From: Frankia sp. AgB32
Lineage (GTDB): Bacteria > Actinomycetota > Actinomycetes > Frankiales > Frankiaceae
Assembly: GCF_023243045.1 (NCBI RefSeq)
Contig: NZ_JALKFX010000084.1
Span: forward strand, 1-38,722
Length of the DNA stretch: 38,722 nucleotides
Direction of reading: 5' to 3'
The position numbers and the translations under genes are program-made. A model generated the notes under the pieces. That model was not told the DNA's origin. It worked only from the letters and a program-made list of their open reading frames with translations, and searched no databases. Below are positions 11,196 to 34,199 of this stretch, piece by piece (positions within the stretch are counted from its first letter, which is position 1; the number at the start of each line of letters is the position of its first letter).

Positions 11196-11211
11196 TCGAA
11201 CACAGGTTCGA
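11196..11211 (-). promoter_or_regulatory. SOS box (LexA operator)
   Basis: TCGAACACAGGTTCGA is a perfect palindrome around a 4-nt centre and matches the actinobacterial/Gram-positive LexA consensus CGAAC-N4-GTTCG. It lies 16 nt upstream of the GTG of the HEPN gene, close enough to overlap its promoter. It is the only such palindrome I noticed in the window and should control HEPN-imuA'-imuB-dnaE2. Confidence 0.88.
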
Positions 11212-11259: not shown

Positions 11260-12204
11260 TCAGCGAACACCTGAGCGAAGCGCCGGCGGCCGGGAACACT
11301 CGAGCAGGCGGATGAACCAGCCCAGCACCAGCAGGCCCACCAGGTCGGGCACCCCGCCCGGCCGTGGGTCCGGGGCATCCCCCCGACAGGTATCCCCCGG
11401 ACCCGCGCCCAGCACCCGGTCCGCCCGGGTGGTCGGCGGCTCGGGCAGGTCCAGGCCGGCGATGACCAAGGCCGTCCCGTCCAGCGCGAACCGAATGATG
11501 TTGGCGCCGCCCGGCGCCACCAGGCCGCTGGCGAACACGGCGCGGGTCGGTTCGAGCCAGCGCAGCACCGTCCCGTCCGCCAGCCGGACCCGACCCCCGG
11601 CACGACCGGGGATGAAGGCCGCGACAGGCACCCGCCCCATCGGCTCGACGAGGCGCACCCCCCGGCCGTCGAGATCCGCCTCCAGCACGAACGGCCGCCG
11701 GGCCGCCATCAGCTCGACCCGCCCCCGGCGCGCCCAGTCGGCGAGCACCGCGTCCTCGTCGGTCTCGACCCACAGCTGTCGGATCGCGTTGCCCCGTCCC
11801 CCGGTCGCGTCCCGAAAGGCCAGCTCGTGTGGCAGTCCGCCGGCCCGCCGGGGCAGGCCGGCCGGCTCGGCCGACCGATCCCCCGACGGCCGCACACCCG
11901 GCTCAGCCGTCCTGACACCAGCCGCTGCAACACCGGCCGTTGCGGCCCCGGGCGCCCCGGCCGCCCCGGCCGCCCCGGCCGGCGAGATCTCGGCGAACAG
12001 CAGCCCCCCGGCCGTCGACGGCCCGGGCGCGGGCCCGTCCGCCGCGGCCGGACCGGCCGGCGGCCGAGACGCGTCCGCCGCCTCCCACACCGCCCCGGTT
12101 CCCAGGCCCGCCAGGACCGACGTCGTCGTCGGGCCGGTCCGCGTCGGCACGCGTCCCCGCGCCCCGGGCCGCCGCGGCAGGATCCTCGCCATCGCGATCG
12201 CCAT
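11260..12204 (-). CDS. Unrecognised protein with Ala/Pro-rich N-terminus and beta-rich core
   Basis: 314 residues. Not recognised. ATG 12204 is preceded by GGAGGTGG, about ten bases upstream. Residues 1-120 are Ala/Pro/Gly-rich and probably disordered. Residues ~130-270 are beta-rich (FVLEADLDGRGVRLVEPMG, then FALDGTALVIAGLDLPEP) and remind me of tubby-C/LURP-one-like barrels, but the resemblance is weak. A hydrophobic stretch near the C-terminus (PDLVGLLVLGWFIRLLEC) could be a membrane anchor. It is divergent from the SARP gene across a 344-nt gap. It lies 79 nt upstream of the HEPN gene on the same strand, but the SOS box between them suggests it is not part of that unit. Confidence 0.65.
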   Translation of the reverse strand: MAIAMARILPRRPGARGRVPTRTGPTTTSVLAGLGTGAVWEAADASRPPAGPAAADGPAPGPSTAGGLLFAEISPAGAAGAAGAPGAATAGVAAAGVRTAEPGVRPSGDRSAEPAGLPRRAGGLPHELAFRDATGGRGNAIRQLWVETDEDAVLADWARRGRVELMAARRPFVLEADLDGRGVRLVEPMGRVPVAAFIPGRAGGRVRLADGTVLRWLEPTRAVFASGLVAPGGANIIRFALDGTALVIAGLDLPEPPTTRADRVLGAGPGDTCRGDAPDPRPGGVPDLVGLLVLGWFIRLLECSRPPALRSGVR

Positions 12205-12548
12205 CTGTCCGCCACCTCCGTACCGCCACCGGCCGTCTGCCGGTCACCCGTCCCCGGGCTTTCGGTTCTCGTTGGTGTCCAGTGCACCGCGGCGGGATCA
12301 ACAACCAGTACCCACCGGTTCACCGCCGCCGTTGAACGACCGTTGAGAGTCCCGACGGAGGATCTGTCCGCGCCGGTGTCACCGAGAGCGCCGGCGCCGG
12401 GTGCTCCGGGTACGGACGCTGACGCGGAGACGACAGGCGCCCAGCCGGATCGGTGGTTGCCGACCCCTCCCCTCCGGGCGCACGCTGCGATAAACACTCA
12501 TCACCCGGGGTCGCGCCGGCAGTCGGAACCCGGCGACGAGAGGACCAG
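12205..12548. promoter_or_regulatory. Intergenic region between the divergent unknown and SARP genes
   Basis: 344 nt with no convincing gene. It should hold both divergent promoters. The only clear element is the phased CGTTGA repeat at 12330-12347; a GAGGAT hexamer 10 nt downstream of it could be a -10 element for the SARP gene. GAGAGGACC just before 12549 is the SARP ribosome-binding site. I saw no terminator or RNA structure. Confidence 0.5.
12330..12347 (+). promoter_or_regulatory. SARP-type operator in front of the SARP gene
   Basis: CGTTGAA-CGAC-CGTTGAG: two heptamers separated by 4 bp, an 11-bp period. This is the geometry of known SARP binding sites (heptameric direct repeats, one helical turn apart). 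Its position about 200 nt upstream of the SARP start suggests autoregulation. The same heptamer pair occurs at 18514-18531 and 18599-18616. The sequence is seen; the binding is inferred. Confidence 0.6.
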
Positions 12549-15500
12549 ATGCCCGCCCGCGACAGCCTGCAGTTCGCCATCCTCGGTCCGCTGGAGGTCA
12601 CCGCGGCGGGGCGGCAGATCGTGCTGCGCGGACCCCAGCGCAGGTGGCTGATGACGGTCCTGCTGCTCGAGGCCGGCCAGGTCGTGCCCGCGCACCGGCT
12701 GCTGGACGCGCTGTGGGGACAGGCCCCGCCGGACGGGGCGATGGCGACCCTGCGCACGCACGTCAGCGAGCTGCGCCGCCAGCTGGAGGACGGCCCCGAG
12801 CTGCGCGTGCTGCTGCGCAAGGGCCCCGGTTACCTCCTCGACATCCGCCCGGAGCAGATCGACGCCGAGCGGGCGCGGCGCCTGCTGGCGCAGGGCCGCC
12901 GGGCGGTGGACGACGGCGACGCGGTCAGCGCGATCGCCCCGCTGCAGGAGGCCCAGTCCCTGTGGCGCGGGCCGGCGCTGGCGGACGTGGCCGATCACCC
13001 GTTCGCGCACGCCTACCTGGAAGCGTTCAACGAGCTGCAGCTCGACGTGTTCAAGACGCGGATCGCCGCGGACCTGTGTCTCGGCCGGCACCGGGAGGTC
13101 ATCGGCGACCTGCGGCTGCGGGTGGCGCGTCATCCGCACGACGACGGGCTGTGCCGGCAGCTGGTCCTCGCCCTCTACCGCGACGGCCGGATCGACGATG
13201 CCGCCCGGGCGTGCCGCGACGGTCTGGCGGCCCGCCACGAGCTGGGGCTGGACTCCCCCCTGCTGCGGGAGTTGCAGGAGGACGTGCTGCGCGGGGCGCC
13301 CGGGCTGGACTGGGCCCCGCCCCGGTCGCTGGAGCGCCACCCGCCGGTCGCGCCCACCGGCGGGGGCGGTCAGCAGCTGCCCCCGGACGTGCCCGAGTAC
13401 ACCGGGCGGGACACCCTCCAGAAGCAGACACACGCCCTGCTCACCGACTCCGAGGCCCTGTCCGGAGGGACGGTGACCGCGGCCTTCGCCGGCAAGGCGG
13501 GCGCGGGCAAGACGGCCCTGGCCGTGCACATCGCGCACCGGGTTCGCGCGGGCTTCACCGACGCGCTGTACGTCGACCTGCGTGGCACCAGCGAGCCGCT
13601 GGAGCCGACGCGGGTGCTGGCCCGGTTCGTCCAGGCGCTCGGGGTGAGCCGGGCGGCGGTACCGACCGACCCGGACGACCTCACCGAGATGTACCGGGAC
13701 CTGGTGGCCACTCGTCGGGTCCTGATCATCCTGGACAACGCCGCGGGCGAGGCGCAGATCCGCCCGTTGATGCCGGCCAGCCCGGGCAGCGCTGTGATCA
13801 TCACCAGCCGGTCCCGGCTGCACGGGCTGGCGGTGACGCCGCGGATGGTCGACCTGCTCATCCCCAGCGACGCGGTGGAACTGCTGACCAAGGTGGTCGG
13901 CGAGCGCCGGGTGGCGGCGGAGCCGGCGGCGGCCCGCGACATCGTCGGGATGTGCGGTTACCTGCCGCTGGCGATCCAGATCGCCGGGCGCAAGCTGGCC
14001 GCGCACCCGCACTGGCGGTTGGAGCGCGTCGCCAGCCGGCTCACCGACGAGCGGGACCGGCTGTCCTTCCTGGAGGTCGGCGACCTGGAGATCCGGGCGA
14101 GTTTCACGCTGAGCTACGTCGGGCGGCCGCCTGACGAGCAACGCGCGTTCCGCCTGCTGTCGCTGCCCGCCGTCAACGACTTCGCGCCGTGGGCGGCGGC
14201 CGCGGTCCTCGACCTCGACCTCGACGAGGCCGAGGACGTCGTGGACCGGCTCGCCGAGGCCCAGTTGCTGGAGCGGCGCGGCGTCGACCCGGCCGGGGCC
14301 GAGCGTTACCGCTTCCACGACCTGTTGCGGGTCTTCGCCCGTGAGCGGGAGACCGGGGTCGGCACCGGCATCGGCACGCCGTCGGGTCGGCACGGGCCCG
14401 AAGGTGGCGCCGCCGGCGGCGTCGCGGAACTCCGGCACGCCCCGGACGCTGCGCTCCCGGCGCCGTCCCCCACGTTGTCCGACGAACACCGAGCGGCGCT
14501 GAGCCAGCTCCTGTACGCCTATCTGGTGATGCTGCGTAAGGCGGTCGACACCTTCAGCCCCGGACGGGTGCGGGCCGTGCCCGTCGGGCCGGGCGAGGAC
14601 GCCGCGTTCGAGACGACGGCCGCCCGTTTCACCGCCGGGGGTCCGGCCGCCATCGTTCACCGGCCGCTGGTCTGGTTCGCCGCGGAGCGGTCGAACCTGC
14701 TCGCGCTCATCGAGCAGGCCTACGCGGCCGGGCTGGACCAGCCGACCTGGCTGCTCGCCGCCGAGGCCGTCGATTTCTACGCGTTCGGGGCGCACTGGGC
14801 CGACTGGGCGCGGACCCACGAACTGGGCCTGGCGGCCGCCCGCCGGGCCGGTCACCGGGTCGCCGAGGCGGAGCTGCTCGCCAATCTCGGGGAGCGGGAG
14901 ATCCTGCTGACCTTCGAGGAGGCGTTCTGGCGGCTGGACGCGCCCGGCACGGACCCCGACGGCGAGCCCGCGGTGGCCGTCGACCGGGGCGCCCCCGGGC
15001 GCCTGGCGCTGGCCACGGAGCGGTTCGAGCGGGCCCGGGCGCTGCTCGCCGGGGGCGGGGAGGACCTGGCCGCGGCGCGTGCGGTGCGCGGGCTCGCGGA
15101 CGCCTGCCGGGGTCGGGGCGAGCAGGCCGAGGCGCTGGCGTCCTTCGAGGCGCGCCTCGCGACGATGCGCCGGGCGGGCGCCCGGCGCGCCGAGGCGGAG
15201 ACGCTGGTGGGTCTCGCGATGGCCTACGGCGATCGCGGGGAGCTCGCGGAGGGCATCGCCTGCCTGACGACGAGCCTGTCGATCGCCCGCGAGCTCGGCA
15301 ACCGCCCGCTGGAGGCGCTGGCCCAGCGCCGCCTCGGTGATCTCTATCGCCACCAGCACCGGCCGGAACAGGCGCTGACCGCGTACAACGAGAGCCTGCC
15401 GCTGCTGGCCGAGGTACCCGACCCGTTGTGGGAGCCGCGGGTGCTGGTCCGCCGCGGCGACATCCTGGCCCAGCTGGACGACCATCCCGCGGCCCGGCGG

Positions 15501-16436
15501 TCCTGGCAGCAGGGCGTCACCCTGCTGCGCCAGCGGCGCTCGCCGGAGCTGACCGCGGCCGAGCGGCGCCTCGCCGAGCCGGTCACCGCCGAGCCGACGC
15601 AGTTCACCGGTGGGCGGCTGCTCGGTGCCTTCGACCCGGCCTACTTCATCGGCCGGGTCGCCTCCGCCCGCCGCAGCGTGCGGCTGCTGAACACCTGGAC
15701 GGACCTGGCCTGCCCGCCGCACGACGACGCCTTCGCCGCCGCGGTCCGCGCGGCGCTCGACGCCGGCGCGATCGTCCAGATCCTGCTCCTGGACCCCGAC
15801 TCGCCGGCCGCGGCGGCCCGCTCGGCGGACCTGGCCCACCGGATCGACGTCGGCGCCGAGATCCGGGCGAACATGCGCACGCTGGACTCGTTGCGGGGAC
15901 GGCTCGACCCCGTCCTGCAGTCGCGGCTGGCCGTGCGGCTCTACGCGGAGCAACCGCTGACGACCTACCACCGCTGGGACACCGGCGCGCTGGTGTCGAG
16001 CTTCCCGGTCGGGGTGTCCTCCGCGGCCGTCACCCAGCACGAGGCGACGATCTCCTCGACGCTCGTCCAGTTCGTCGAGCAGCACTTCGACCGGCTGTGG
16101 GGCCCGCAGGGCAGCATCTCCCTGGACGACTACCTCCGGGTGCCGCTGCGCGTCAGCCCGACGGGCGCCGGCGAGACGGACGTCCGCTGCGAGTACGTGC
16201 TTCTCGACGGGGTGGTGTACCTCTCCTGCCCCGAGCTCACCGAGCTGCTGCGCCACGGCGGTCCGGACGCCCTGGTCACCTCGGTGGCCGACGGGCAGCA
16301 TCCACTGGCCGACGTCGGGCGGTGCCGGGTGGTGCCGCTGCGGGGTGACAACGGTGGCGGCGTGGCGGCGGTCTTCGCCCGAAAGTACGGCGGCGCCCGG
16401 GACGACCTGCTACGACTGGCATCGGCGCGGAGTTGA
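12549..16436 (+). CDS. Large SARP-family regulator: wHTH-BTAD-NB-ARC-TPR plus DUF5919-like C-terminus
   Basis: 1,295 residues. The OmpR-like winged helix (about 1-100) and BTAD domain (about 105-255) mark a SARP activator. The NB-ARC/STAND ATPase has Walker A GKAGAGKT (about 314-321), Walker B VLIILDN (about 390), TSRSRL (about 418) and GYLPLAIQIAG (about 467). TPR-like helical repeats run from about 815 to 1015. The last ~280 residues contain LLLDPDSPAAAAR, a YHRWDTGALVSSF segment and EQHFDRLWG, which resemble from memory the phospholipase-D-like DUF5919 module; no HKD motif is present. ATG 12549 follows GAGAGGACC and begins directly at the DNA-binding domain. The stop TGA (16434-16436) lies inside the right end of the inserted TnpB element. 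Its likely targets are the nearby phased-repeat sites. Confidence 0.88.
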   Translation: MPARDSLQFAILGPLEVTAAGRQIVLRGPQRRWLMTVLLLEAGQVVPAHRLLDALWGQAPPDGAMATLRTHVSELRRQLEDGPELRVLLRKGPGYLLDIRPEQIDAERARRLLAQGRRAVDDGDAVSAIAPLQEAQSLWRGPALADVADHPFAHAYLEAFNELQLDVFKTRIAADLCLGRHREVIGDLRLRVARHPHDDGLCRQLVLALYRDGRIDDAARACRDGLAARHELGLDSPLLRELQEDVLRGAPGLDWAPPRSLERHPPVAPTGGGGQQLPPDVPEYTGRDTLQKQTHALLTDSEALSGGTVTAAFAGKAGAGKTALAVHIAHRVRAGFTDALYVDLRGTSEPLEPTRVLARFVQALGVSRAAVPTDPDDLTEMYRDLVATRRVLIILDNAAGEAQIRPLMPASPGSAVIITSRSRLHGLAVTPRMVDLLIPSDAVELLTKVVGERRVAAEPAAARDIVGMCGYLPLAIQIAGRKLAAHPHWRLERVASRLTDERDRLSFLEVGDLEIRASFTLSYVGRPPDEQRAFRLLSLPAVNDFAPWAAAAVLDLDLDEAEDVVDRLAEAQLLERRGVDPAGAERYRFHDLLRVFARERETGVGTGIGTPSGRHGPEGGAAGGVAELRHAPDAALPAPSPTLSDEHRAALSQLLYAYLVMLRKAVDTFSPGRVRAVPVGPGEDAAFETTAARFTAGGPAAIVHRPLVWFAAERSNLLALIEQAYAAGLDQPTWLLAAEAVDFYAFGAHWADWARTHELGLAAARRAGHRVAEAELLANLGEREILLTFEEAFWRLDAPGTDPDGEPAVAVDRGAPGRLALATERFERARALLAGGGEDLAAARAVRGLADACRGRGEQAEALASFEARLATMRRAGARRAEAETLVGLAMAYGDRGELAEGIACLTTSLSIARELGNRPLEALAQRRLGDLYRHQHRPEQALTAYNESLPLLAEVPDPLWEPRVLVRRGDILAQLDDHPAARRSWQQGVTLLRQRRSPELTAAERRLAEPVTAEPTQFTGGRLLGAFDPAYFIGRVASARRSVRLLNTWTDLACPPHDDAFAAAVRAALDAGAIVQILLLDPDSPAAAARSADLAHRIDVGAEIRANMRTLDSLRGRLDPVLQSRLAVRLYAEQPLTTYHRWDTGALVSSFPVGVSSAAVTQHEATISSTLVQFVEQHFDRLWGPQGSISLDDYLRVPLRVSPTGAGETDVRCEYVLLDGVVYLSCPELTELLRHGGPDALVTSVADGQHPLADVGRCRVVPLRGDNGGGVAAVFARKYGGARDDLLRLASARS

Positions 16437-16560
16437 CATCCTCCCTCGCCTGAAGGCGAGGGATTCCAACTCCTACACACCCACCAAGGGGGGTGCGGAA
16501 GGTTGAGGTTCGCGGTTCACAGGCCGCCTGTTGGCGTCGCCTCCCCGCGCAGTCACCCAG
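16433..16560 (-). ncRNA. Putative omega/reRNA of the TnpB element
   Basis: In this family the RNA guide scaffold comes from the 3' end of tnpB and the element's right end, and the guide is copied from the flank beyond it. The right-end stem-loop at 16443-16462 is present. The flank that would serve as guide is the complement of 16413-16432 (CTCCGCGCCGATGCCAGTCG), in the 3' end of the SARP gene. The 5' end of the RNA is not visible and the start given here is nominal. Confidence 0.4.
16443..16462. repeat. Right-end stem-loop of the TnpB element
   Basis: CCCTCGCC-TGAA-GGCGAGGG, a perfect 8-bp stem. It lies between the element terminus and the tnpB stop codon. It could also terminate transcription from either side. 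Confidence 0.75.
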
Positions 16561-17678
16561 GTGGTCGCCCACTGATGTCCCAGGGCGATGTTGCGTGCCG
16601 CGTTCATGTCGGCGTTCGCCTGCTGCCCACAGGTCCGGCAGCGGAAGACGGCTTGGTTCTCCCGCGCCTCCGGGTCCCGGGTTCCGCAGATGTTACAGGT
16701 CAGCGACGTCCACGCGGGGTTGATTCTCTCGACGCGGCCGGGGGCTTTCTGTTCCAGGCGTTGGACGAGGAGTCCCCAGGCGTTCGCGAGGACACCCCGG
16801 TTCAGTCCGGCTTTCTGCCGGACGTTCCTGCCCGGCTCTTCGACCGTGCCCCGCGCCGAACGGGTCAGGTTCCGGATGTTCAGATCTTCGATGCGGATCA
16901 CGTCGTACCGCCGGGCGAGATCGGTACTGGTCTTCTCGGCCCAGTCCTTCCGCCGGTCAACTTCCCGGGCTTTCACCCGGGCGATCCGGGCCTTGACCCG
17001 GGCCCCGCGGACACTGCCGCGTTGCACGCGAGCGAGCCGGCGTTGAAGCCGTCGCAGCCGTGCGACCTCAGTAGGTCGCAGCCCAGGACAGGACAGCTGC
17101 TCCCCACTGCTCAGGGCCGCGGACACGGTCACACCACGATCGACGCCGACCACCCGCCCCGTCCCGGGCGCCGGGATCGGCGCGGGCACGGCGGCGAACG
17201 CCACATGCCAGCGGCCCGCCCGATCCCGGGTGACCCGATACGACTTCGCGTCGGGAACGGCACGGGACCGGCGGAACCGCACCCAGCCAACCTTCGGCAC
17301 ACGCACCTCGGACCAGCGACGGTTGACCTGCCGCACATCCCCGGCCTTCACCGCGACGATCCGGAAACCCTCAGAGCGGCCACGCTTCCGAAAGCACGGT
17401 TTCCGATGGGAACCCCGGAAAAAATTGGCCATGGCAGTGGAGAAATCCCGCAGCGCCTGCTGCTGCACAATAATACTACCCGCCGCGAGCCAGCCGAAAG
17501 CCCGGCGCGCTTCGGTCAACTGCCGGTTCTGCTCTGCATAACCCGGCGCCGGCCCACGGCGAGGATTCCACCATGACTGCTGCTCCACCGCCAGGTTCCA
17601 CACATAGCGCGCATTCCTGCAGTGGTTTTCCATCACGACCGCCTGACTGGCGGTCGGATAAAGCCGGTAGCGGGACAT
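16473..17678 (-). CDS. tnpB: TnpB RNA-guided nuclease of an IS605-type element
   Basis: 401 residues, normal full length. It begins MSRYRLYPTASQ and has the N-terminal helix-rich domain. The RuvC nuclease residues appear intact: GVDRG (first Asp), RIEDLN (Glu) and NADMNAARNIA (last Asp). A zinc ribbon lies between the last two, with CNICG and CRTCG. The family uses a transposon-encoded RNA to cut DNA beside a short motif, promoting retention of the element. No frameshift or internal stop is seen, so this copy is probably functional. It is convergent with the SARP gene and divergent from the CrtA-like gene. Confidence 0.92.
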   Translation of the reverse strand: MSRYRLYPTASQAVVMENHCRNARYVWNLAVEQQSWWNPRRGPAPGYAEQNRQLTEARRAFGWLAAGSIIVQQQALRDFSTAMANFFRGSHRKPCFRKRGRSEGFRIVAVKAGDVRQVNRRWSEVRVPKVGWVRFRRSRAVPDAKSYRVTRDRAGRWHVAFAAVPAPIPAPGTGRVVGVDRGVTVSAALSSGEQLSCPGLRPTEVARLRRLQRRLARVQRGSVRGARVKARIARVKAREVDRRKDWAEKTSTDLARRYDVIRIEDLNIRNLTRSARGTVEEPGRNVRQKAGLNRGVLANAWGLLVQRLEQKAPGRVERINPAWTSLTCNICGTRDPEARENQAVFRCRTCGQQANADMNAARNIALGHQWATTWVTARGGDANRRPVNREPQPSAPPLVGV

Positions 17679-17735
17679 CGCATGATTCTACCGAAAGGAT
17701 CCACCTATGCGTTCCAGCGTCGAGCGCTGTTTCCT

Positions 17736-17755
17736 CCCCGGCCTGAAGGCCGGGG
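17736..17755. repeat. Left-end stem-loop of the TnpB element
   Basis: CCCCGGCC-TGAA-GGCCGGGG, a perfect 8-bp stem with the same loop and orientation as the right-end one (16443-16462). It lies 19 bp inside the proposed left boundary and 20 nt before the CrtA-like start codon, so it could affect translation or promoter access of that gene. Confidence 0.65.
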
Positions 17756-17774
17756 CATCCACGGCACAAACCCG

Positions 17775-18530
17775 GTGAACGCAGCGAGTTCCCCGGTCCC
17801 GCTGGTGACCGTCGACTTCTGGCGGGTCCCCCGCCGCCGGGTCGGTCATGCCCTGGCGAGGATGGCGACCGACCGCGCGGCGCTGCGCGGGGTGTCCGGG
17901 CTGACCTTCGCCAGGATGCTGGGTACCGGCTCGGCCAGCAGCCTGGGCCTGCGCGGCGCCGATCCGTGCCAGTGGGCGATGCTCGGCGTCTGGCAGACCC
18001 CGTCGGCGGCCCGTTCGTTCGAGCGCTCCGCGCAGGTGCGGGCCTGGTCGGCGCTGGCCGAGGAACGCTGGCGCATCGATCTGCATCCGCTGTCCTCCCG
18101 GGGGCGGTGGTCCCAGCGGGAACCGTTCGGCGATCCGGCGGCGGCGAACCAGCCGGGTCCCGCGGGAGCCAAGATCGCGGTGATCACCCGGGCGCGGATC
18201 GCCGCCCGGCACTCCCTGACCTTCCGGCGGGCGGTCCCGCCGGTGGTCGCGGACCTCGCCGAGTCGGACGGCCTGCTGTTCGCCGCCGGGATCGGGGAGG
18301 CCCCGTTCGGCCTGAAGGGAACGTTCAGCCTGTGGCGGGACACCGCCGCGCTGCGCCGGTTCGCCTACGGCCGGCCGGCGCACAGCGAGGTCGTCCGGCG
18401 CACCCCGGAGGTGGGGTGGTACAGCGAGGAGCTGTTCGCCCGGTTCGCGGTGCTCGCCTCCCGGGGCACCCTCGGCGGACGCGACCCGCTGCTGGCGCTG
18501 GCGCCCGACCCCACGTTGACGGCGCGTTGA
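17775..18530 (+). CDS. CrtA-like (spheroidene monooxygenase family) carotenoid oxygenase
   Basis: 251 residues, close to the usual CrtA length. Family-like segments are VTVDFWRVPRRRVGHALARM, then GLTFARMLGTG, WAMLGVWQT and a C-terminal FSLWRDTAALRRFAYG. Known CrtA enzymes put keto groups on acyclic carotenoids, which suits the neighbouring cruF/crtD-like genes. The chosen GTG (17775) lies immediately beyond the proposed end of the TnpB element and would have overlapped the SARP stop as GTGA before the insertion; GTG 17805 is an alternative. No ribosome-binding site is visible in the present allele because the upstream DNA now belongs to the element. The gene may therefore be poorly expressed. 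Confidence 0.72.
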   Translation: MNAASSPVPLVTVDFWRVPRRRVGHALARMATDRAALRGVSGLTFARMLGTGSASSLGLRGADPCQWAMLGVWQTPSAARSFERSAQVRAWSALAEERWRIDLHPLSSRGRWSQREPFGDPAAANQPGPAGAKIAVITRARIAARHSLTFRRAVPPVVADLAESDGLLFAAGIGEAPFGLKGTFSLWRDTAALRRFAYGRPAHSEVVRRTPEVGWYSEELFARFAVLASRGTLGGRDPLLALAPDPTLTAR

Positions 18531-18531
18531 C
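18514..18531 (+). promoter_or_regulatory. SARP-type operator overlapping the end of the CrtA-like gene
   Basis: CGTTGAC-GGCG-CGTTGAC: identical heptamers with a 4-bp spacer, 11-bp period. The second heptamer includes the CrtA-like stop codon. It is the cleanest of the three matching sites and lies about 250 nt upstream of the fusion gene start. Confidence 0.6.
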
Positions 18532-18598
18532 GATCACCGGCCGGTCCGCCCGCGGGCTGGCCGCGGGCTGGCCGGTGCCGCCGGGTCGCCGCGGGGCT

Positions 18599-18616
18599 TC
18601 TTGACCGCTCGTTGAC
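18599..18616 (+). promoter_or_regulatory. SARP-type operator upstream of the dehydrogenase-oxidase fusion gene
   Basis: TCTTGAC-CGCT-CGTTGAC: same 7+4+7 geometry as the sites at 12330 and 18514, and 85 bp downstream of the latter. It is the nearest site to the fusion gene, whose preferred ATG is at 18784. No clear -10 hexamer is seen at the expected distance. Confidence 0.55.
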
Positions 18617-18783
18617 GACCGGCAGGCACGGTGGACGCGTCCGGCCGCACCGCCGATCGCCCGGGCCTACGCCGGCCCGGCCGCCCGCCGCACCACGTGA
18701 CCCGACGTGCGCCACCGTGGCAGACCCCCGACGTGCGCGCCGGTGCGGGCGCGCCCCCCGACGAACGGGATGAAGTCCACCGC

Positions 18784-21363
18784 ATGCCGACATTCCATGA
18801 TCAGATGGTCCGCGCCGAGGTGGCCGGACCGCGACCCGACCGGCCGCCGCGGCCGAACGGGGCCGGCGACGGACCTCCCACCCGGCGCCGGGTGCTGATC
18901 GCCACCCCGGTCAGCGCCCGGCTGGCCGCGATGGCCGCCGGCCCGGCGACGGTGCGCCCGGAGCTCGCCGCCCGCCCGGACCTGCTCGCCGACGCGCTGG
19001 CCGGGCTGCGCCCGCACACGCTGGTCGTCGGCGCGAACGCGGTGCCCGCCGACGCCCTCGCCCGCTGGGTCGCGGCGGTGCGCGCCACCGGTGACGACCG
19101 CGCCCTGGTGCTGGTCCGCCGGGGCACCTCGCTGGCCGCCGTCGACCTGGCCGCCGCCGCCCACTTCGGCATCACGGTGCGCAACACCCCGGAGGTCAAC
19201 GCGCGCCACGTCGCCCAGTTCATGATCGATCGGCTGTTCGCGGCGGCGCCGGGCGACGGGTCGCACGGATCGCCGGGAGTGCTGGGGCTGCTCGGCGCCG
19301 GCGACATCAACAGCAGGGTGGCGCGGGCCGCCAGCACCCGCGGCTGGCGGCTGGTCGTCTGCTCCCCTTCGCTCGTCACCGACCCGGCGGCGCTGCCCGC
19401 CTGGACCCGGCGCCACCACCTGACCGCCGAGAACGTCCGTGTCGCGGCCACCGCGGCGGAGGTCCTCGGCGCCGCCGCCGCGCTCGCCCTCGCCGTTCCG
19501 CTCGTCCACACCGGTCCGTGGGCGAGCGCCGGCCTGATCGACGCGGACCTTCTGGAGCGGTTCCAGGGCGGTCGGATCATCAGTGTCAGCGAGCCCGAGG
19601 TGTTCACCCCCCGCGCCCTGCTCCACGCCTACGACCGGGCCGGACTCACCATCGCGCTGGACAACGCCCCCCGGCTGCTCGCCCCCGTGCGGGACCTGCT
19701 CGCCGGGCGGATCACCCGCGACGGCGGCCAGCCGCGCCGCGGCTTCACCCTGTGCTCCGCGGCGATGCGCACCCCCGCCTGCGACGACGACCTCGACCAG
19801 GCCGTGCTCACCGTGGTCGGCCGCACCGACCTCGACGAGATCGCCGGCACCGACCTGCTGGCCCCGCCCGCCCCGCTGCGGGCCCCGGCGGCTCTGGCGG
19901 TCCCAGCCCCCCCGGCGGTCCCAGCCACCCCGGCGGCCGACGACGGCGCCGTGGTGATCGTCGGCGGCGGCATCGTCGGCCTCGTCACGGCCCTGCTGCT
20001 GCGGCTGCGCGGCGGGCGCCGGATCCTGGTCGTCGACGCGGCCCCGGCGGACCGCACGGACCCCGACCGGCAGGGCACCACGTTCGGTGGCGCCAACGCG
20101 CGCCACCTGTCGGCGACCGAGGCCCTGCCGCCGGCGGTCGCGCAGCGGGCCGACGTTCTCACCCGCCCGCCGGCCCTGGGTGGCTGGCGACTGCGCGCCG
20201 CCAGCTCCCTCGACCCGGCCGAGACCGCCTGGGCGCGGGCGTTCGCGCGCCGCGCCGACCAGCCGGGCCTGCACGCCGGCGCCCAGGAGCTGGCGATCGC
20301 CCTGAACCGCCTTGGACTGCGCGGCTGGACACAGCTGTTCGAGGACGGCGACGCGCAGAGCTGGCTGGGTGGACTGCGCCGCGACGCCCGGCTCGCACGG
20401 GTCTACCTGGACGACGCGGACCTCGCCACGGGCGAACGGCTGCAACAGGCCACCGGGGACGGCGCCACCCGACTGGAACCGGGCGCGCTCGCCCGCGGCT
20501 GGCCCGGTCTGGGCCACGCCGTGCCACTGCCGGGTGGCGTCCGGGAGATCGCCGGCGCCGTCGAGGTCGACGGCTACGCCGTCAACATCCACGACCTGGC
20601 CACCGCGCTGACCAGCCGCCTCGCCGAACTCGGCGTCGAGGTGCGCCCGGACACCCGGGTGGACCGCCTGGAACCGGCCCCCGCCGACGACCAGCGGGAC
20701 GACGGCCTCGACGCCTCCCCACCCGGCGTCCTGCTGCGCCTCGACGGTGGCGGGGTGCTCGGCGCCGACCGGGTCGTCGTGACCGCCGGCGGCCGTGACC
20801 TGGACCGGCTGCTCGGCGCCTACTGGCCGGGGGCCGGCGCGGTCGCGCACCTGCTCGGGCTGTCGTTGACCCTGCCCAACCCGGGGCTGACGCGGCCGGT
20901 GAAGATCCACGCCGGCGACCCGCTCGGCGTCATGAACGTCACGCTGTCCCCGGACGGGTCCCTCGTCCACGTCAGCGCGGGCTTCGGCTACCGCGGCCGC
21001 GCCGGCCGGGCGGCCGCCCGGGCCGGCGCCGACGAGCTGCGGGCCGTCGCCGAGCGGGCCGTCGCCGGGCTGTTCCCGACGCTGTGCCGCGCCGCCGGCA
21101 GCCTCGAGGTGCGCGACGTCCGGTTCTGTGAACGGCCGGCGACTCCGGACGGGCTGCCGCTGGTCACCGCCGTGCCCGCGCACGCGGGCCGGGTGGTGGT
21201 GGCCGCGGGGACGAACGCCGGCGGCGCGGTCCAGGCCCCGGCGGTGGCACTGCTGGTCGCGGACCTGCTCGAGGGCGCGCCCCGGTGCGCCGGGCTGGCC
21301 CTGGCCGGCGACCGCGTCGGCCTGCCGGCCATACCGGAAAAAATTCCCTCCGCGTCGGTCTGA
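18784..21363 (+). CDS. Fusion protein: 2-hydroxyacid-dehydrogenase-like domain plus FAD-dependent oxidoreductase
   Basis: 859 residues. The N-terminal part (about 30-340) resembles NAD-dependent D-2-hydroxyacid dehydrogenases, with the Rossmann motif GVLGLLGAGDINSRVARAA near residue 165. The usual catalytic His position reads LDNAP, so activity is doubtful. After an Ala/Pro linker (about 365-388) an FAD domain starts with VVIVGGGIVGLVTALLL and ends with a DadA-type segment, ATPDGLPLV then VVVAAGTNAGGAVQAPAVAL, pointing to an amino-acid or amine oxidase/dehydrogenase. The substrate is unknown. ATG 18784 is chosen because the extension from GTG 18631 is low-complexity; neither has a strong ribosome-binding site. 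Two phased-repeat sites upstream suggest SARP control. Confidence 0.75.
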   Translation: MPTFHDQMVRAEVAGPRPDRPPRPNGAGDGPPTRRRVLIATPVSARLAAMAAGPATVRPELAARPDLLADALAGLRPHTLVVGANAVPADALARWVAAVRATGDDRALVLVRRGTSLAAVDLAAAAHFGITVRNTPEVNARHVAQFMIDRLFAAAPGDGSHGSPGVLGLLGAGDINSRVARAASTRGWRLVVCSPSLVTDPAALPAWTRRHHLTAENVRVAATAAEVLGAAAALALAVPLVHTGPWASAGLIDADLLERFQGGRIISVSEPEVFTPRALLHAYDRAGLTIALDNAPRLLAPVRDLLAGRITRDGGQPRRGFTLCSAAMRTPACDDDLDQAVLTVVGRTDLDEIAGTDLLAPPAPLRAPAALAVPAPPAVPATPAADDGAVVIVGGGIVGLVTALLLRLRGGRRILVVDAAPADRTDPDRQGTTFGGANARHLSATEALPPAVAQRADVLTRPPALGGWRLRAASSLDPAETAWARAFARRADQPGLHAGAQELAIALNRLGLRGWTQLFEDGDAQSWLGGLRRDARLARVYLDDADLATGERLQQATGDGATRLEPGALARGWPGLGHAVPLPGGVREIAGAVEVDGYAVNIHDLATALTSRLAELGVEVRPDTRVDRLEPAPADDQRDDGLDASPPGVLLRLDGGGVLGADRVVVTAGGRDLDRLLGAYWPGAGAVAHLLGLSLTLPNPGLTRPVKIHAGDPLGVMNVTLSPDGSLVHVSAGFGYRGRAGRAAARAGADELRAVAERAVAGLFPTLCRAAGSLEVRDVRFCERPATPDGLPLVTAVPAHAGRVVVAAGTNAGGAVQAPAVALLVADLLEGAPRCAGLALAGDRVGLPAIPEKIPSASV

Positions 21364-21518
21364 CGACGTTACGTGGCAGGCATTCCCGTCGCCCGGCGCA
21401 CTCGGCGACCGGCGCGTTATCGTCAGGCGATGTGAGGGTGCGACCCGGCCTCCTGGCCCGCCGGACCCGTCGGCGGAACCAGCTCGGGCTGCCGGGGCAC
21501 GGACAGGAGGCGACGCCG

Positions 21519-22196
21519 GTGACCGACATGGACGTCAGCGTGGTCCCGTGGTCGGCGCGTCGCATGCGTACCCGGCTCGACGACGTCATCGGGATCTACA
21601 AGGCCGCGTTCCTCGACTTCCACGAGGCCGACCCCGTCCGGGCCGCCCGGGACCGGGCGCTGCACGCCCGCCGCCACTTCGACCGACCGGACCTGCGTGC
21701 GGTCGCCGCCGTCACGCCCGACGACACGCTCGTCGGCATCACCTACGCGCTACCCGGCAAACCCGGCCAATGGTGGCATGACGTGGTCCACGACGCGCTG
21801 ACGGCGGTGTCGCCCGCGACGGCGGGGCACTGGCTCGACGACTGTCTGGAGGTCGTCGAACTGCACGTGCTGCCCGCCTGGCAGGGCCGTTCGATCGGCC
21901 GGCGGCTGCTGCGGGAGCTGCTGCTCGACGTCCCGCAGCACACGGCGGCGCTGTCCGCGTTGGAGCCGCCCGGCAGCCGCGCGCGTCGGCTGTACGCGAG
22001 CGAGGGGTTCGTGCCGTTGCTGTCGGACTTCCAGTTTCCCGGCACGTTCACCCCGTACGCGGTGCTCGGCAAGGAACTGCCCGCGGCCTCGGCTGTGTCC
22101 CCGGACGGTGACCACTCGGACGGTGACCACTCGGACGGTGAGCGCGCGGACGGTGAGCGCGCGGACGGCTCCGGCCGGCCCGAGCCCGTGCGGTGA
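21519..22196 (+). CDS. GNAT-family acetyltransferase with a repetitive C-terminal tail
   Basis: 225 residues. The GNAT core has VVELHVLPAWQGRSIGRRLL (acetyl-CoA-binding Q/R-x-x-G-x-G/A-like loop) and SRARRLYASEGFVPL. GTG 21519 has AGGAGG eight bases upstream; longer frames lack this. After the domain a tail of about 35 residues contains four 5-residue repeats (DGDHS, DGERA). The substrate is unknown. The stop overlaps the start of the cruF-like gene, so the two are translationally coupled. That places an acyl/acetyltransferase in the carotenoid run, possibly acting on another metabolite. Confidence 0.82.
   Translation: MTDMDVSVVPWSARRMRTRLDDVIGIYKAAFLDFHEADPVRAARDRALHARRHFDRPDLRAVAAVTPDDTLVGITYALPGKPGQWWHDVVHDALTAVSPATAGHWLDDCLEVVELHVLPAWQGRSIGRRLLRELLLDVPQHTAALSALEPPGSRARRLYASEGFVPLLSDFQFPGTFTPYAVLGKELPAASAVSPDGDHSDGDHSDGERADGERADGSGRPEPVR
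22104..22163 (+). repeat. Four 15-bp in-frame tandem repeats
   Basis: Two copies of GACGGTGACCACTCG followed by two of GACGGTGAGCGCGCG, inside the GNAT gene. They encode DGDHS-DGDHS-DGERA-DGERA. Confidence 0.9.
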
Positions 22197-23029
22197 TGTC
22201 CGAGCGCCCGGTGCCGCACGCGCTCCGGGCGGCCCGGCCCCGCGGCCGGGACAGGTCCGGTGAAATCCGCCGTCATCGGCTGTCGGCCGCCGGGTGGCTG
22301 CTGGCGATCGGCGTGGTGGCCACGCAGATCCCCTACCCGCTGGTCGACGGCACGGCGCGCGTCGCCCTGACCGCCGCGACGGTCGTGCTGTTCTTCCTGG
22401 CCTCGACGACGCACGCGGCGGCGACCCGGGGACCGGCGTGGGCCGCCGGCTTCGTCGTCGTGGCCGTCGGCGGCGGACTCGCCGTGGAGACACTCGGTGT
22501 GCACACCGGTGTGCCGTTCGGGCGTTACGTCTACGGGAGCTCGCTCGGGCCCCGGTTGTTCGGCGTGTCCATCGTCGTGCCGCTGGCCTGGGCGATGATG
22601 GCCTATCCCGCCTATGTCCTGGTCCGCCGACATCAGCGGGCCCCGGACCGGGCCGCGGTGCTCGGCGGTCTGGTGCTGGCCACCTGGGACCTGTTCCTCG
22701 ATCCGCAGATGGTCGCCGCCGGGCACTGGCGCTGGAACGCCACCGGGCCGGCGCTCAACGGCATCCCGGTGACGAACTTCCTCGGCTGGCTGCTGGTCGG
22801 GACGTTACTGACCGGCGTCCTGCTGGCCCTGCCCGACCCGGGCCGGGCGGAGCCGCGCGACGAGCGGATCCCGCTCACCCTGCTGGCCTGGACCTATCTG
22901 TCGTCGGTGCTGGCCAACGCCGTGTTCTTCGTCCGTCCCGGTGTGGCCGCGCTCGGCGGCGCCGCGATGGGGGCGGTGCTGCTGGCGGGCCTGCGGCCGT
23001 GGCGCAGTGACCAGCGGGCCGACCGGTGA
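22196..23029 (+). CDS. cruF: CruF-like carotenoid 1',2'-hydratase (DUF422 membrane protein)
   Basis: 277 residues, about seven membrane helices. Family hallmarks are GVPFGRYVYGSSLGPRLFGV, TWDLFLDPQMVA, HWRW and GIPVTNFLGWLLVG; the conserved Asp and Glu/His residues lie in the membrane. CruF/carotenoid-biosynthesis proteins hydrate the terminal double bond of acyclic or monocyclic carotenoid ends to give a 1'-hydroxyl. The ATG at 22196 overlaps the GNAT stop by one base; GTG 22193 is an alternative one codon earlier. The gene overlaps the next one by GTGA, the same cruF-glycosyltransferase pairing known for CruF/CruG in cyanobacteria. Confidence 0.85.
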   Translation: MSERPVPHALRAARPRGRDRSGEIRRHRLSAAGWLLAIGVVATQIPYPLVDGTARVALTAATVVLFFLASTTHAAATRGPAWAAGFVVVAVGGGLAVETLGVHTGVPFGRYVYGSSLGPRLFGVSIVVPLAWAMMAYPAYVLVRRHQRAPDRAAVLGGLVLATWDLFLDPQMVAAGHWRWNATGPALNGIPVTNFLGWLLVGTLLTGVLLALPDPGRAEPRDERIPLTLLAWTYLSSVLANAVFFVRPGVAALGGAAMGAVLLAGLRPWRSDQRADR

Positions 23030-24204
23030 CGGAAACGCTGGGACGGGGCTGGTCGGCGGCGGTGCGCGCGGCCGCGGTGGGCTCGGCCGGGATCGCCGTG
23101 CACACGGCGGTCAACGCCCGGCTGCTGCGGATCGCGCCGCCGGCCCGGACGGTGCCCGAGCGGGTGTCCGTGATCCTGCCGGTGCGCGACGAGGCCGCCC
23201 ATCTCGACGGCTGCCTGGGCGCCCTGCTCGCCTCCGCGCACGTACCCGACCTGGAGATCATCGTCTGGGACGACGAGTCCACCGACGGCACCGGCCGGAT
23301 GCTGGCCGGCTGGGCGCGCCGCGACCGCCGCGTCCTCGCCCGGCGCGGCGGGGCGCCCCCGGCCGGCTGGCTCGGGAAGCCGCACGCCTGCGCCCGCGCG
23401 GCGGCCGCCGCGAGCGGCACGGTGCTGGTCTTCGTCGACGCCGACGTGCGGGTCGCCCCGGACGGGCTGGCCCGCGCCGTGCTGCTGCTGCGCGAGTCCA
23501 GGCTCGACCTGGTCTCGCCGTATCCGCGCCAGGTCGCCGACGGGCTTGCCGAGCGGCTCGTCCAGCCACTGCTGACCTGGTCGTGGCTGGCGCTGCTGCC
23601 GCTGCGAGCGGCGGAGCGCTCCCCGCGGCCGTCGCTGGCCGCGGCCGGCGGGCAGTTCCTGTGCGTGGACGCGGCGGCCTACCGCCGGGCCGGCGGGCAC
23701 GAGGCCGTCCGCGACCAGGTCATCGAGGACATCGCCCTGCTCCGGGCGATCAAACGGTCCGGCGGGCGGGGGGTGGTCGTCGACGGCACCGACCTGGCCG
23801 CCAACCGGATGTACGACGGCTGGGCGGCGCTGCGCGACGGCTATGCCAAGTCGCTCGCGGCGGCCGGTGGCCACCCGGTGGCCAGCGCCGCGCAGGTGGG
23901 GCTGCTGGGCTGGCTGTTCGTCCTGCCCGCCGGCGCCGCCCGGCGCCGCCGGGGCCGGGGGCGGGCGGGCGACCGGGCCGCGGGAGTCGCGGGCCTGCTC
24001 GCCGGGGTGGCCGGGCGGGTCGTCGCCGCCCGCCGCACGGGCGGGCGGAGCTGGCCGGACCCGGCCGCCCATCCGGTCTCGGTCGCCCTCGTCGGCTACC
24101 TCACCGCCCTGTCGTGGTGGCGGCGCCGGCACGGCGGCGCGTCCTGGAAGGGCCGGGCGCTGCCCTCCGACCCGCCGCGCCGCGGGCCGCGCGGCGGATC
24201 GTAG
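23026..24204 (+). CDS. cruG: GT2 carotenoid glycosyltransferase, CruG-like
   Basis: 392 residues, GTG start in a 4-nt overlap with cruF. GT-A fold motifs are VSVILPVRDEA, WDDESTDGTG, FVDADV (the DxD metal site) and DQVIEDIALLRAIKR. An N-terminal hydrophobic patch and C-terminal hydrophobic segments suggest membrane association. Likely role: transfer of a sugar to the hydroxyl made by CruF. The C-terminal ~80 residues are Arg-rich, with a variable GRGRAGDRAAG linker. The symbol is by position and family; CrtQ-type enzymes are close relatives. The CrtD-like gene follows after 10 nt. Confidence 0.8.
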   Translation: MTETLGRGWSAAVRAAAVGSAGIAVHTAVNARLLRIAPPARTVPERVSVILPVRDEAAHLDGCLGALLASAHVPDLEIIVWDDESTDGTGRMLAGWARRDRRVLARRGGAPPAGWLGKPHACARAAAAASGTVLVFVDADVRVAPDGLARAVLLLRESRLDLVSPYPRQVADGLAERLVQPLLTWSWLALLPLRAAERSPRPSLAAAGGQFLCVDAAAYRRAGGHEAVRDQVIEDIALLRAIKRSGGRGVVVDGTDLAANRMYDGWAALRDGYAKSLAAAGGHPVASAAQVGLLGWLFVLPAGAARRRRGRGRAGDRAAGVAGLLAGVAGRVVAARRTGGRSWPDPAAHPVSVALVGYLTALSWWRRRHGGASWKGRALPSDPPRRGPRGGS

Positions 24205-24214
24205 AGTCCTCGTC

Positions 24215-25741
24215 GTGACCCGCGTGGTGGTGATCGGCGCCGGGGTGGGTGGCCTGGCCGCGGCGGCCCGTCTCGCCGCGGCCGGGCACGATGTCACCGT
24301 CTGCGAACAGGCGTCGGCGGTCGGCGGGAAACTCGGCTGGTACGAGCGGGACGGTTTCGGCTTCGACACCGGACCGTCCCTGCTGACCATGCCGGGCGTG
24401 TTCGAGGAGCTGTTCGCCGCCACCGGCGGCCCGCTGCGCGACGTGCTGGAGCTGCGCCGGCTCGACCCGATCGCCTCCTACCGGTTCGCCGACGGCACCA
24501 GGCTCGCCGCGCACGCCGACGACGATGCCTTCGCCGCCGAGCTCGACGCCCGCCTCGGTGGCGGCGCCGGCGGTGACTGGCGTCGGGGGGCCGCCCGCGC
24601 GGCCCGGGTCTTCGCCGCGGCCGACGGGCCGTTCCTGTCGCGACCGGTGCGGGTGGGTGGCCTCGCCCGGCTCGCGTCGGCCCGGCCCGCGGATCTCGCC
24701 ACGGTCGCCCCCGGGCGCACCCTGCGCGGGCTCGGCCGCGGCCTGCTGCGTGACCCGCGGCTACGCCAGCTGTTTGACCGGTATGCGACGTACTCCGGTT
24801 CCGACCCGCGGCGCGCGCCGGCCGCGCTGGTGTCGGTCGTCCACGCCGAACGGCACTTCGGCGGCTGGTACGTCCCCGGCGGGCTGCGTCGTCTCGGCGC
24901 GGCCCTCGCCGACCGCGCCGAGCAGCGCGGCGCCCGGTTCCTGCTCGACACCCGGGTGCTGACGGTGACCCGCACTCCCGGCGGCCGGGTGGACGGCGTA
25001 CGCCTCGTCGACGGCCGGCTGCTGCCCGCCGACGTCGTGGTCGCGAACGTCGACGCGGCCGCGCTCTACGGCCGGCTCGTCGCGGATCGTGCCGGCCGCC
25101 GCCGGGTACGCCGCGCCACGCCGTCGATGTCCGGGTTCGTGCTGCTGCTGGCGTTGTCGGGCCGCACCCCGGGGCTGGGGCACCACACGGTGACGTTCCC
25201 GGCGAACTACGACGACGAGTTCGACGCGGTCTTCGCCGGCCGCCTCGCCGTCGACCCGGCGATCTACCTCAGCTCCCCCGCCGACCCGGCCTGCGCGCCG
25301 CCGGGCGCCGAGGCGGTGTTCGTCCTGGTCAACGCCCCGCCGCACGTACCGCTCGGGAAGGCTGGGGCCCCCGGGAAGGCTGGGACGCTCGGGAAGGCCG
25401 GGACGCTCGGTCAGGGCCTGGACTGGGACCGGCCGGGCCTGGCCGACGGGTATGCGCGCCAGGTGCTCGACCTGTTGGCGGCCCGCGGATTCGACCTGCG
25501 GCCGCGACTGCGCTGGTACGAGACGATCACGCCGGCCGACCTGGAACGGCGCACCGGCGCGGTCGGCGGGTCGATCTACGGCTCGTCGTCGAACGGCGTG
25601 CGGGCGGCGTTCCTGCGCCCGCCGAACGCCGCCGCCGTGCCCGGGCTGTTCCACGTCGGCGGTTCGGCTCATCCCGGCGGCGGCCTGCCGCTGGTCGTCC
25701 GGTCGGCGCAGATCGTCGCCGGGCTCGTCGGGCCGGCCTGA
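24215..25741 (+). CDS. crtD: CrtI-family FAD desaturase, probably CrtD-like (C-3,4 desaturation)
   Basis: 508 residues, GTG start 10 nt after cruG. N-terminal dinucleotide motif VVVIGAGVGGLAAAARLAAA, then FDTGPSLLTMP and the C-terminal GLFHVGGSAHPGGGLPLVV, all typical of phytoene-desaturase-family enzymes. A second, more canonical CrtI lies at 31415. This one ends the cruF-cruG run, so CrtD (3,4-desaturation of 1-hydroxy carotenoids) fits best, but sequence alone cannot separate CrtD from CrtI or CrtN. An 18-bp tandem repeat inserts LGKAGA-PGKAGT-LGKAGT in a surface loop at about residues 380-397. No terminator is obvious after the stop. Confidence 0.78.
   Translation: MTRVVVIGAGVGGLAAAARLAAAGHDVTVCEQASAVGGKLGWYERDGFGFDTGPSLLTMPGVFEELFAATGGPLRDVLELRRLDPIASYRFADGTRLAAHADDDAFAAELDARLGGGAGGDWRRGAARAARVFAAADGPFLSRPVRVGGLARLASARPADLATVAPGRTLRGLGRGLLRDPRLRQLFDRYATYSGSDPRRAPAALVSVVHAERHFGGWYVPGGLRRLGAALADRAEQRGARFLLDTRVLTVTRTPGGRVDGVRLVDGRLLPADVVVANVDAAALYGRLVADRAGRRRVRRATPSMSGFVLLLALSGRTPGLGHHTVTFPANYDDEFDAVFAGRLAVDPAIYLSSPADPACAPPGAEAVFVLVNAPPHVPLGKAGAPGKAGTLGKAGTLGQGLDWDRPGLADGYARQVLDLLAARGFDLRPRLRWYETITPADLERRTGAVGGSIYGSSSNGVRAAFLRPPNAAAVPGLFHVGGSAHPGGGLPLVVRSAQIVAGLVGPA
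25352..25405 (+). repeat. Three 18-bp in-frame tandem repeats in the crtD-like gene
   Basis: The unit is CTCGGGAAGGCTGGGGCC with small changes, plus a partial fourth copy. It encodes (L/P)GKAG(A/T). Confidence 0.88.
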
Positions 25742-34159: not shown

Positions 34160-34199
34160 CCTCTCTGTCGACCTCGGGCTTCATGACGACGGAGGCCGC

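Follow-up and report, generated by a model that had tools for sequence, protein, structure and literature searches.

The closest described counterpart of the system reported here is AfsR, which, with the afs box of Streptomyces coelicolor afsS, represents the large Streptomyces antibiotic regulatory proteins (SARPs) carrying nucleotide-binding and TPR parts. In the portions of the literature drawn on here, AfsR recognises CGTT(T/C)A (PMC10972967), the afs box extends from −40 to −19 with one protomer per 11-nt repeat, and sigma region 4 rests on two protomers in place of a −35 element (PMC10936776). By our arithmetic on the latter account, the downstream heptamer ends at −23, ten nt before the −12 to −7 hexamer. 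Sites of three heptamers are reported for DnrI, ActII-ORF4 and PimR, those of PimR with 4-nt spacers (PMC10972967). The present analysis concerns direct repeats of the type CGTTGA in a stretch of 38,722 nt from Frankia sp. AgB32 (the window), which lie upstream of a large SARP gene and, further along, at the end of a crtA-like gene and before a fusion gene leading into a carotenoid run (fusion-GNAT-cruF-cruG-crtD). Judged by their conservation, register, promoter spacing, concentration at this locus and co-occurrence with the SARP, the repeats are quite probably binding sites of the neighbouring SARP, through which it would activate a divergently transcribed gene and the fusion-GNAT-cruF-cruG-crtD run. 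The elements concerned are as follows.

12281 to 12325, minus strand: P1-minus, a leftward array of the heptamers CGGTGAA (12325-12319), TGGGTAC (12314-12308) and TGTTGAT (12303-12297).
12286 to 12281, minus strand: putative −10 of P1-minus, TGCACT, 10 nt after the TGTTGAT heptamer.
12330 to 12347, plus strand: P1-plus, CGTTGAA-CGAC-CGTTGAG, extending the 11-bp register of P1-minus in the opposite orientation.
12457 to 12486, plus strand: TTGCCG-N18-CACGCT, probably the SARP gene's own, SARP-independent promoter (a predicted role).
12549 to 16436, plus strand: SARP gene, encoding an OmpR-type winged helix-turn-helix (wHTH), BTAD, NB-ARC, TPR and a C-terminal phospholipase D (PLD)-like domain.
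18514 to 18531, plus strand: P2-A, CGTTGAC-GGCG-CGTTGAC, overlapping the stop codon of the crtA-like gene.
18599 to 18632, plus strand: P2-B, TCTTGAC-CGCT-CGTTGAC, then 10 nt and CACGGT (18627-18632) as putative −10.

As at afsS, a large SARP with nucleotide-binding and TPR parts is here paired with two 11-nt direct repeats, the downstream one equally far from the −10. Unlike AfsR, the core reads CGTTGA rather than CGTT(T/C)A, so the locus does have a heptamer of its own, as the initial annotation of this DNA had proposed. Further differences are a Glu in place of AfsR R92, the extra C-terminal PLD-like domain, a score below the AfsR equivalog cut-off and the predicted target, a carotenoid-tailoring run. 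The three repeats of P1-minus resemble the sites of DnrI, ActII-ORF4 and PimR, including the spacer length of the latter, but at P1 a further pair in the opposite orientation continues the register. The heptamers of these three regulators differ in sequence from the CGTTGA type.

The repeats are conserved at matching places beside matching genes in Frankia and related genera. Orthologous regions were taken from 13 Frankia genomes and from five genomes of three other genera of the same family, which gave 18 rows for the crtA/fusion region (P2) and 16 for the region upstream of the SARP gene (P1), as the latter was unreadable in two genomes because of contig ends (G007 and G012). Pairs were scored out of 12 (two CGTTGA at 11-bp phase), with a threshold of at least 10, and compared with first-order Markov shuffles (1000 per region). 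A plus-strand pair reaching the threshold was present in 16 of 16 SARP upstream regions and in 17 of 18 crtA/fusion regions, although the shuffles predict only 0.23 and 0.33 such regions, respectively; conservation so far above expectation indicates that the pairs are not due to chance. Conservation upstream of orthologues, which the initial annotation had named as a check, is thus borne out. At other phases between 7 and 21, the threshold was reached in 0 to 9 of the 16 P1 regions and 0 to 13 of the 18 P2 regions, the highest counts being those of phase 13 in P1 (9/16) and of phases 19 and 20 in P2 (13/18 and 8/18). The mean score was 11.25 (P1) and 11.44 (P2) at phase 11, and at most 9.38 and 9.67 elsewhere. 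Spacers and flanks have diverged across the four genera while the pairs were kept. When neither the window nor its closest relative (L058) was used to build it, a weight matrix ranked P2-B first in the window (29.4) and P1-minus second (27.0), followed by P2-A (14.6) and P1-plus (11.9), with the next best match at 7.8. In seven other Frankia downstream stretches (16-20 kb), P2-B was the top match (27.8-36.7), and the best match outside P2 scored between 6.0 and 10.6.

The distance between 3′ heptamer and hexamer, 10 nt, equals that of the AfsR afs box, so P1-minus and P2-B fit the AfsR geometry and P1-plus and P2-A do not; an overlap with the −35 position at a fixed distance from a −10 was found at P1-minus and P2-B only. 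In all 16 regions, the 3′ heptamer of P1-minus contains TTGA, the distal heptamer, 22 bp further upstream, contains TGA (a weaker heptamer lies in between), and the hexamer begins and ends with T (TGCACT in 12; TCCACT, TCTGCT, TCAACT and TCCAAT in one each). P1-plus has TTGA in both heptamers, likewise in 16 of 16. Counted in the window, the five heptamer centres of P1 lie at 12300, 12311, 12322, 12333 and 12344, each 11 apart. From P1-plus to the leftward heptamer, the offset is 27 bp in 13 genomes and 28 bp in three, which puts the register off by one in the latter; the P1-minus rows were aligned at the better of these two offsets, and a run without such choice gave the same sites. P2-B has TTGA in the 3′ heptamer in 18 of 18 rows and in the 5′ heptamer in 16, and the second and sixth positions of its hexamer are A and T throughout, with CACNNT in 16 of 18 (CACGGT 10, CACCGT four, CACAGT, CACGCT, GAAGGT and GAATGT one each). 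P2-B is the predicted promoter of the fusion run. At P2-A, which lies at or shortly past the crtA stop, both heptamers contain TTGA in all 13 Frankia; in the five genomes of other genera, no second P2 pair scoring at least 10 was found. The initial annotation had read the pairs as a candidate SARP regulon. Heptameric direct repeats with a 4-nt spacer, in SARP format, conserved and concentrated beside a SARP gene, agree with this; the pairs at 12330 and 18514, lacking a promoter-proximal −10, are accessory at best.

In the 13 Frankia genomes, P2-A and P2-B are 61-65, 73 or 85 bp apart, which is suggestively near whole helical turns (5.8-6.2, 6.95 and 8.1). Around the crtA stop, extra repeat-like sequence is present in two genomes that both retain the P2-A pair: L059 has a near-copy of the heptamer pair, L063 a longer insertion ahead of the pair.

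Three pairs with 7+4+7 spacing had been listed in the initial annotation, at 12330, 18514 and 18599, and all are there: a pattern search for CGTTGA-N5-CGTTGA finds the former two with no mismatch and the last with two. That no other such pair lies outside coding regions agrees with the absence of any further match in the 38,722 nt at up to two mismatches, but the last TGA of the 18514 pair is itself the crtA-like stop codon. The number of sites was too low, however: there are four arrays, the one on the minus strand (12281-12325) having been overlooked. At two-mismatch tolerance, the count alone is insignificant (1.59 expected; at least three matches in 23 of 100 shuffles). Genome-wide (6.68 Mb, 274 contigs), the exact pair occurs three times, two of them in the window; the third copy (C210), lying between a TetR-like gene and a gene divergent to it (names assigned by eye), was put aside as palindromic and beside a TetR-like gene. 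The spacing of 5 is not enriched, with three of the 48 exact CGTTGA pairs at spacings 0-25 in the whole genome. The genome-wide search for chance frequency that had been proposed is therefore uninformative, and the case rests on place and conservation. Among the 13 Frankia genomes, 18 of 31 exact copies fall at the SARP/crtA locus.

The distribution of the SARP points the same way. SARP and fusion gene occur in an identical set of 18 of the 35 family genomes (16 of 27 among those at least 90% complete). A strict P2-B pattern (at most one mismatch) is found in 15 of the 18 SARP genomes and in none of the 17 lacking the SARP. A P1-minus pattern (at most two mismatches) matches P1 in 12 of 18 SARP genomes, missing G002, G014, G016 and G020, with G007 and G012 not visible to it; its scattered matches in many genomes make it weak evidence. 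Three of the 17 SARP-lacking genomes (L069-L071) have crtA, GNAT, cruF, cruG and crtD; SARP, fusion and divergent gene were not found in the stretches read, and no plus-strand pair there scores at least 10.

The protein has the architecture expected of such a regulator. Trans_reg_C, BTAD, NB-ARC and TPR_12 of Pfam are all above cut-off, with the OmpR-type wHTH (PF00486, 41.3 bits) followed by BTAD (PF03704, 95.9 bits). It matches AfsR chains at E 1.2e-31 to 3.4e-30, and over wHTH-BTAD it resembles the solved SARPs AfsR (8hvr, E 1.2e-31) and EmbR (2fez, E 3.1e-28); with 474.2 bits against an equivalog cut-off of 1430 (NF053617), it does not qualify as an AfsR orthologue. Among its relatives, that of Frankia sp. 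AgKG'84/4 is 92% identical (residues 252-1293) and that of AiPa1 71% (best segment). Twelve DNA-contact residues of AfsR were compared in 16 orthologues: seven (Q48, W74, P79, R87, T88, S91 and R94) are identical in all, and K95 is replaced by Arg. The model of the C-terminal domain (15501-16436; predicted local distance difference test, pLDDT, 78) is PLD-like and has 72 Foldseek matches at E ≤0.001, including phospholipases D and archaeal TrmBL2, with TM-scores by query length of about 0.26-0.38 among the matches listed (best 50 of 72). Because its invariant columns contain no HxK motif, this domain probably serves in sensing and not in catalysis.

Several observations weigh against the repeats being sites at which this SARP activates transcription. 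Neither P1-plus (16 regions, at SARP spacing) nor P2-A (at 10 nt) is followed by a conserved −10, and the −10 hexamers of P1-minus and P2-B deviate from TANNNT. In all 16 orthologues, R92, a base-specific contact in AfsR, is Glu; S46 is replaced by Gly, S80 by Asp or Glu, and Q81 is variable, so that specificity cannot be transferred from AfsR. Three genomes possess the SARP and are missed by the strict P2-B pattern (G014, G019 and G022), their sites being degenerate or reading GAAGGT/GAATGT, and the P2 pair of L064 reaches no more than 9 (shuffle P 0.085), its P2-B row having been aligned manually. Of the exact copies in Frankia, 13 of 31 are off the locus: six represent one recurrent form, CGTTGAG(C/A)TTGCGTTGA, in six of the 13 genomes, which in L101, L125 and L122 apparently belongs to one shared coding stretch (by eye, three sequences viewed), and the remaining seven, C210 included, are singletons. 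The orthologues are also related, and row counts do not equal independent events. As most rows come from one genus and the spacing class lacks genome-wide enrichment, chance or remnants of recent common descent might be invoked; that explanation is already contradicted by conservation across four genera despite diverged spacers and flanks (16 and 17 regions where 0.23 and 0.33 would be expected), and we give it practically no credence.

If the repeats are bound by a regulator, it might be one other than the neighbouring SARP. PHO boxes, the sites of PhoP, share the format (7+4, with seven conserved bases in each 11-nt unit of a direct repeat), and PhoP and AfsR have common sites at afsS (PMC6988585, PMC10972967); in the part of PMC6988585 drawn on, G at box position 5 favours PhoP and T favours AfsR, which, taken literally, would suit sites containing G. 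The PHO core, however, is GTTCACC and that of the present sites GTTGA, and the genome itself supplies a comparison: just before pstS (TIGR00975, 273.2 bits, cut-off 205), a PHO-box-like pair of GTTCATC and GTTCACT around TTTC (GTTCATCTTTCGTTCACT, L232:1501-1518; one of 94 matches at up to two mismatches and the sole one whose gene was looked up) has C where the SARP-locus sites have G. As that pair reads GTTCA, and as the sites of the present locus track the SARP and concentrate at one place, PhoP or another OmpR-type response regulator is quite unlikely. Binding by a SARP paralogue is improbable too: SARP-like sequences abound (in G000, a first look gave 49 candidates, mostly unscored, which is an upper bound), but the sites are co-located and co-absent with the neighbouring SARP. 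The TTGAC cores could, finally, be −35 boxes of sigma-70 promoters from which the pairs arise, as may be so in the SARP-lacking L069 and L070, where one minus-strand pair each (scores 11 and 10) reads TTGACG-N17-TATCTT/TATATT and, by eye, looks like a sigma-70 promoter beside an SOS box. Such a promoter would show TTGACN and, some 17 nt further on, a −10. By inspection, the hexamer of P1-minus and P2-B is too near for this −35/−10 spacing, its distance from the heptamer is a constant 10 nt, and conservation extends to both heptamers, which makes this origin very unlikely.

From the arrangement of the arrays we infer how the neighbouring SARP might bind and activate. At P1-minus and P2-B, adjacent protomers would occupy heptamers that follow one another at intervals of one helical turn. 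They would stand in for the −35 contact and, as AfsR does at afsS, bring the housekeeping RNA polymerase to a weak −10 lying 10 nt downstream (TGCACT and CACGGT, respectively). P1-minus would thereby activate the divergent gene (11260-12204) and P2-B the fusion-GNAT-cruF-cruG-crtD run, with the −10-less pairs at 12330 and 18514 serving as accessory sites that load or hold activator beside these two promoters.

The initial annotation had also proposed that the SARP gene is autoregulated from the site before it. This is not supported, because P1-plus lacks a conserved −10, the array that has one points away from the SARP gene, and a separate block, TTGC(C/G)(G/A)-N17/18-CAC(G/T)CT, is probably the gene's own promoter. 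This block, 95-199 bp downstream of the P1-plus start, is present in all 11 Frankia regions read and in L064 and L066 (13 of 16 in total); L065, L067 and L068 lack it. A promoter-proximal site driving the SARP gene itself was not seen in these regions. Autoregulation is possible, though not supported by promoter geometry, and P1-plus may influence the SARP gene as well.

The gene order is an imuB-dnaE2-like block and the divergent gene on the minus strand, then SARP, crtA-like, fusion, GNAT, cruF, cruG and crtD-like genes on the plus strand. The genes around the arrays are as follows.

11260 to 12204, minus strand: divergent gene of uncharacterised function, predicted target of P1-minus.
16473 to 17678, minus strand: TnpB-type gene of an insertion resembling IS200/IS605, located between SARP and crtA and outside the predicted regulon.
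17775 to 18530, plus strand: crtA-like gene, spheroidene monooxygenase family (NF045923, E 1.1e-42, 145.9 bits, below the cut-off of 300).
18784 to 21363, plus strand: fusion gene, a 2-hydroxyacid-dehydrogenase-like part (weak, below cut-offs) joined to an FAD-dependent oxidoreductase (DAO, above cut-off).
21285 to 22196, plus strand: GNAT-family gene (PF13508, 27.8 bits, cut-off 27), start uncertain.
22193 to 23029, plus strand: cruF, bisanhydrobacterioruberin hydratase family (TIGR03460, 178.7 bits, cut-off 154.7).
23026 to 24204, plus strand: cruG-like family 2 glycosyltransferase (Pfam PF00535; below NCBIfam equivalog cut-offs).
24215 to 25741, plus strand: crtD-like desaturase of the crtI family, GTG start at 24215 (TIGR02734, 295.2 bits, cut-off 238.1, on 24245-25741).

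Close packing of the genes from fusion to crtD in the window points to a single operon. In two of ten downstream stretches read (L127 and L131), crtD lies about 4 kb past cruG with other sequence in between, so it is not always part of the run. From this and the placement of the arrays, the regulon is likely to comprise the divergent gene and fusion-GNAT-cruF-cruG, plus crtD in most genomes. The locus had been cast as a carotenoid switch; the fusion-GNAT-cruF-cruG-crtD run does lie downstream of a site, but the weight-matrix scan found none before the geranylgeranyl pyrophosphate synthase (GGPPS), crtI or crtB genes. The earlier interpretation was thus right in kind and wrong on the gene served by the upstream region and on the share of carotenoid synthesis covered. 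The divergent gene adjoins the SARP gene in every locus long enough to show it. Its product has no Pfam or NCBIfam match, and its model (pLDDT 72) has no Foldseek match at E ≤0.001, which also leaves a tubby/LURP-like fold, considered for it, unsupported. The crtA-like gene has an orthologue in 12 of 12 other Frankia genomes searched (80-95% identical) and was matched in 31 of 35 family genomes. Among the loci read, the TnpB element (16437-17774) separates SARP and crtA in this genome only; in the closest relative, their matches are 24 bp apart.

MoxR, DUF58 and VWA genes (33053-36238) sit between crtI and crtB, and they follow crtI in the five relatives whose stretches reach that far (L128, L129, L130, L132 and L133). 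An exact TCGAAC-N4-GTTCGA, which we take to be an SOS box of the actinobacterial type, lies at 11196-11211 between the divergent gene and the imuB-dnaE2-like block; in L069 and L070, the SOS box stands beside a TTGAC-N17 promoter facing that block.

Among the open-access literature matches listed (titles and abstract openings), none linked a SARP to carotenoids in Frankia, and the reading of the system as a well-conserved, new representative of the SARP class is well supported by comparison of the genomes. That the change of R92 to Glu and that of heptamer position 5 belong together is our hypothesis. A bolder proposal, which we hold to be doubtful, is a branch of SARPs whose DNA code has altered (Glu for AfsR R92, G for C/T at heptamer position 5), with a degenerate PLD/TrmB-like sensor and five heptamers arrayed back to back in a single 11-bp register, coupling perhaps a lipid or sugar cue to the divergent gene and to glycosylated carotenoids. 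With these predictions, a SARP outside Streptomyces gains a defined, evolution-tested operator set together with target genes, and this set is tied to carotenoid tailoring, not to an antibiotic. An uncharacterised gene becomes linked to the predicted regulon, and, as heptamer position 5 and the residue equivalent to AfsR 92 are both changed, the family offers a natural test of SARP recognition.

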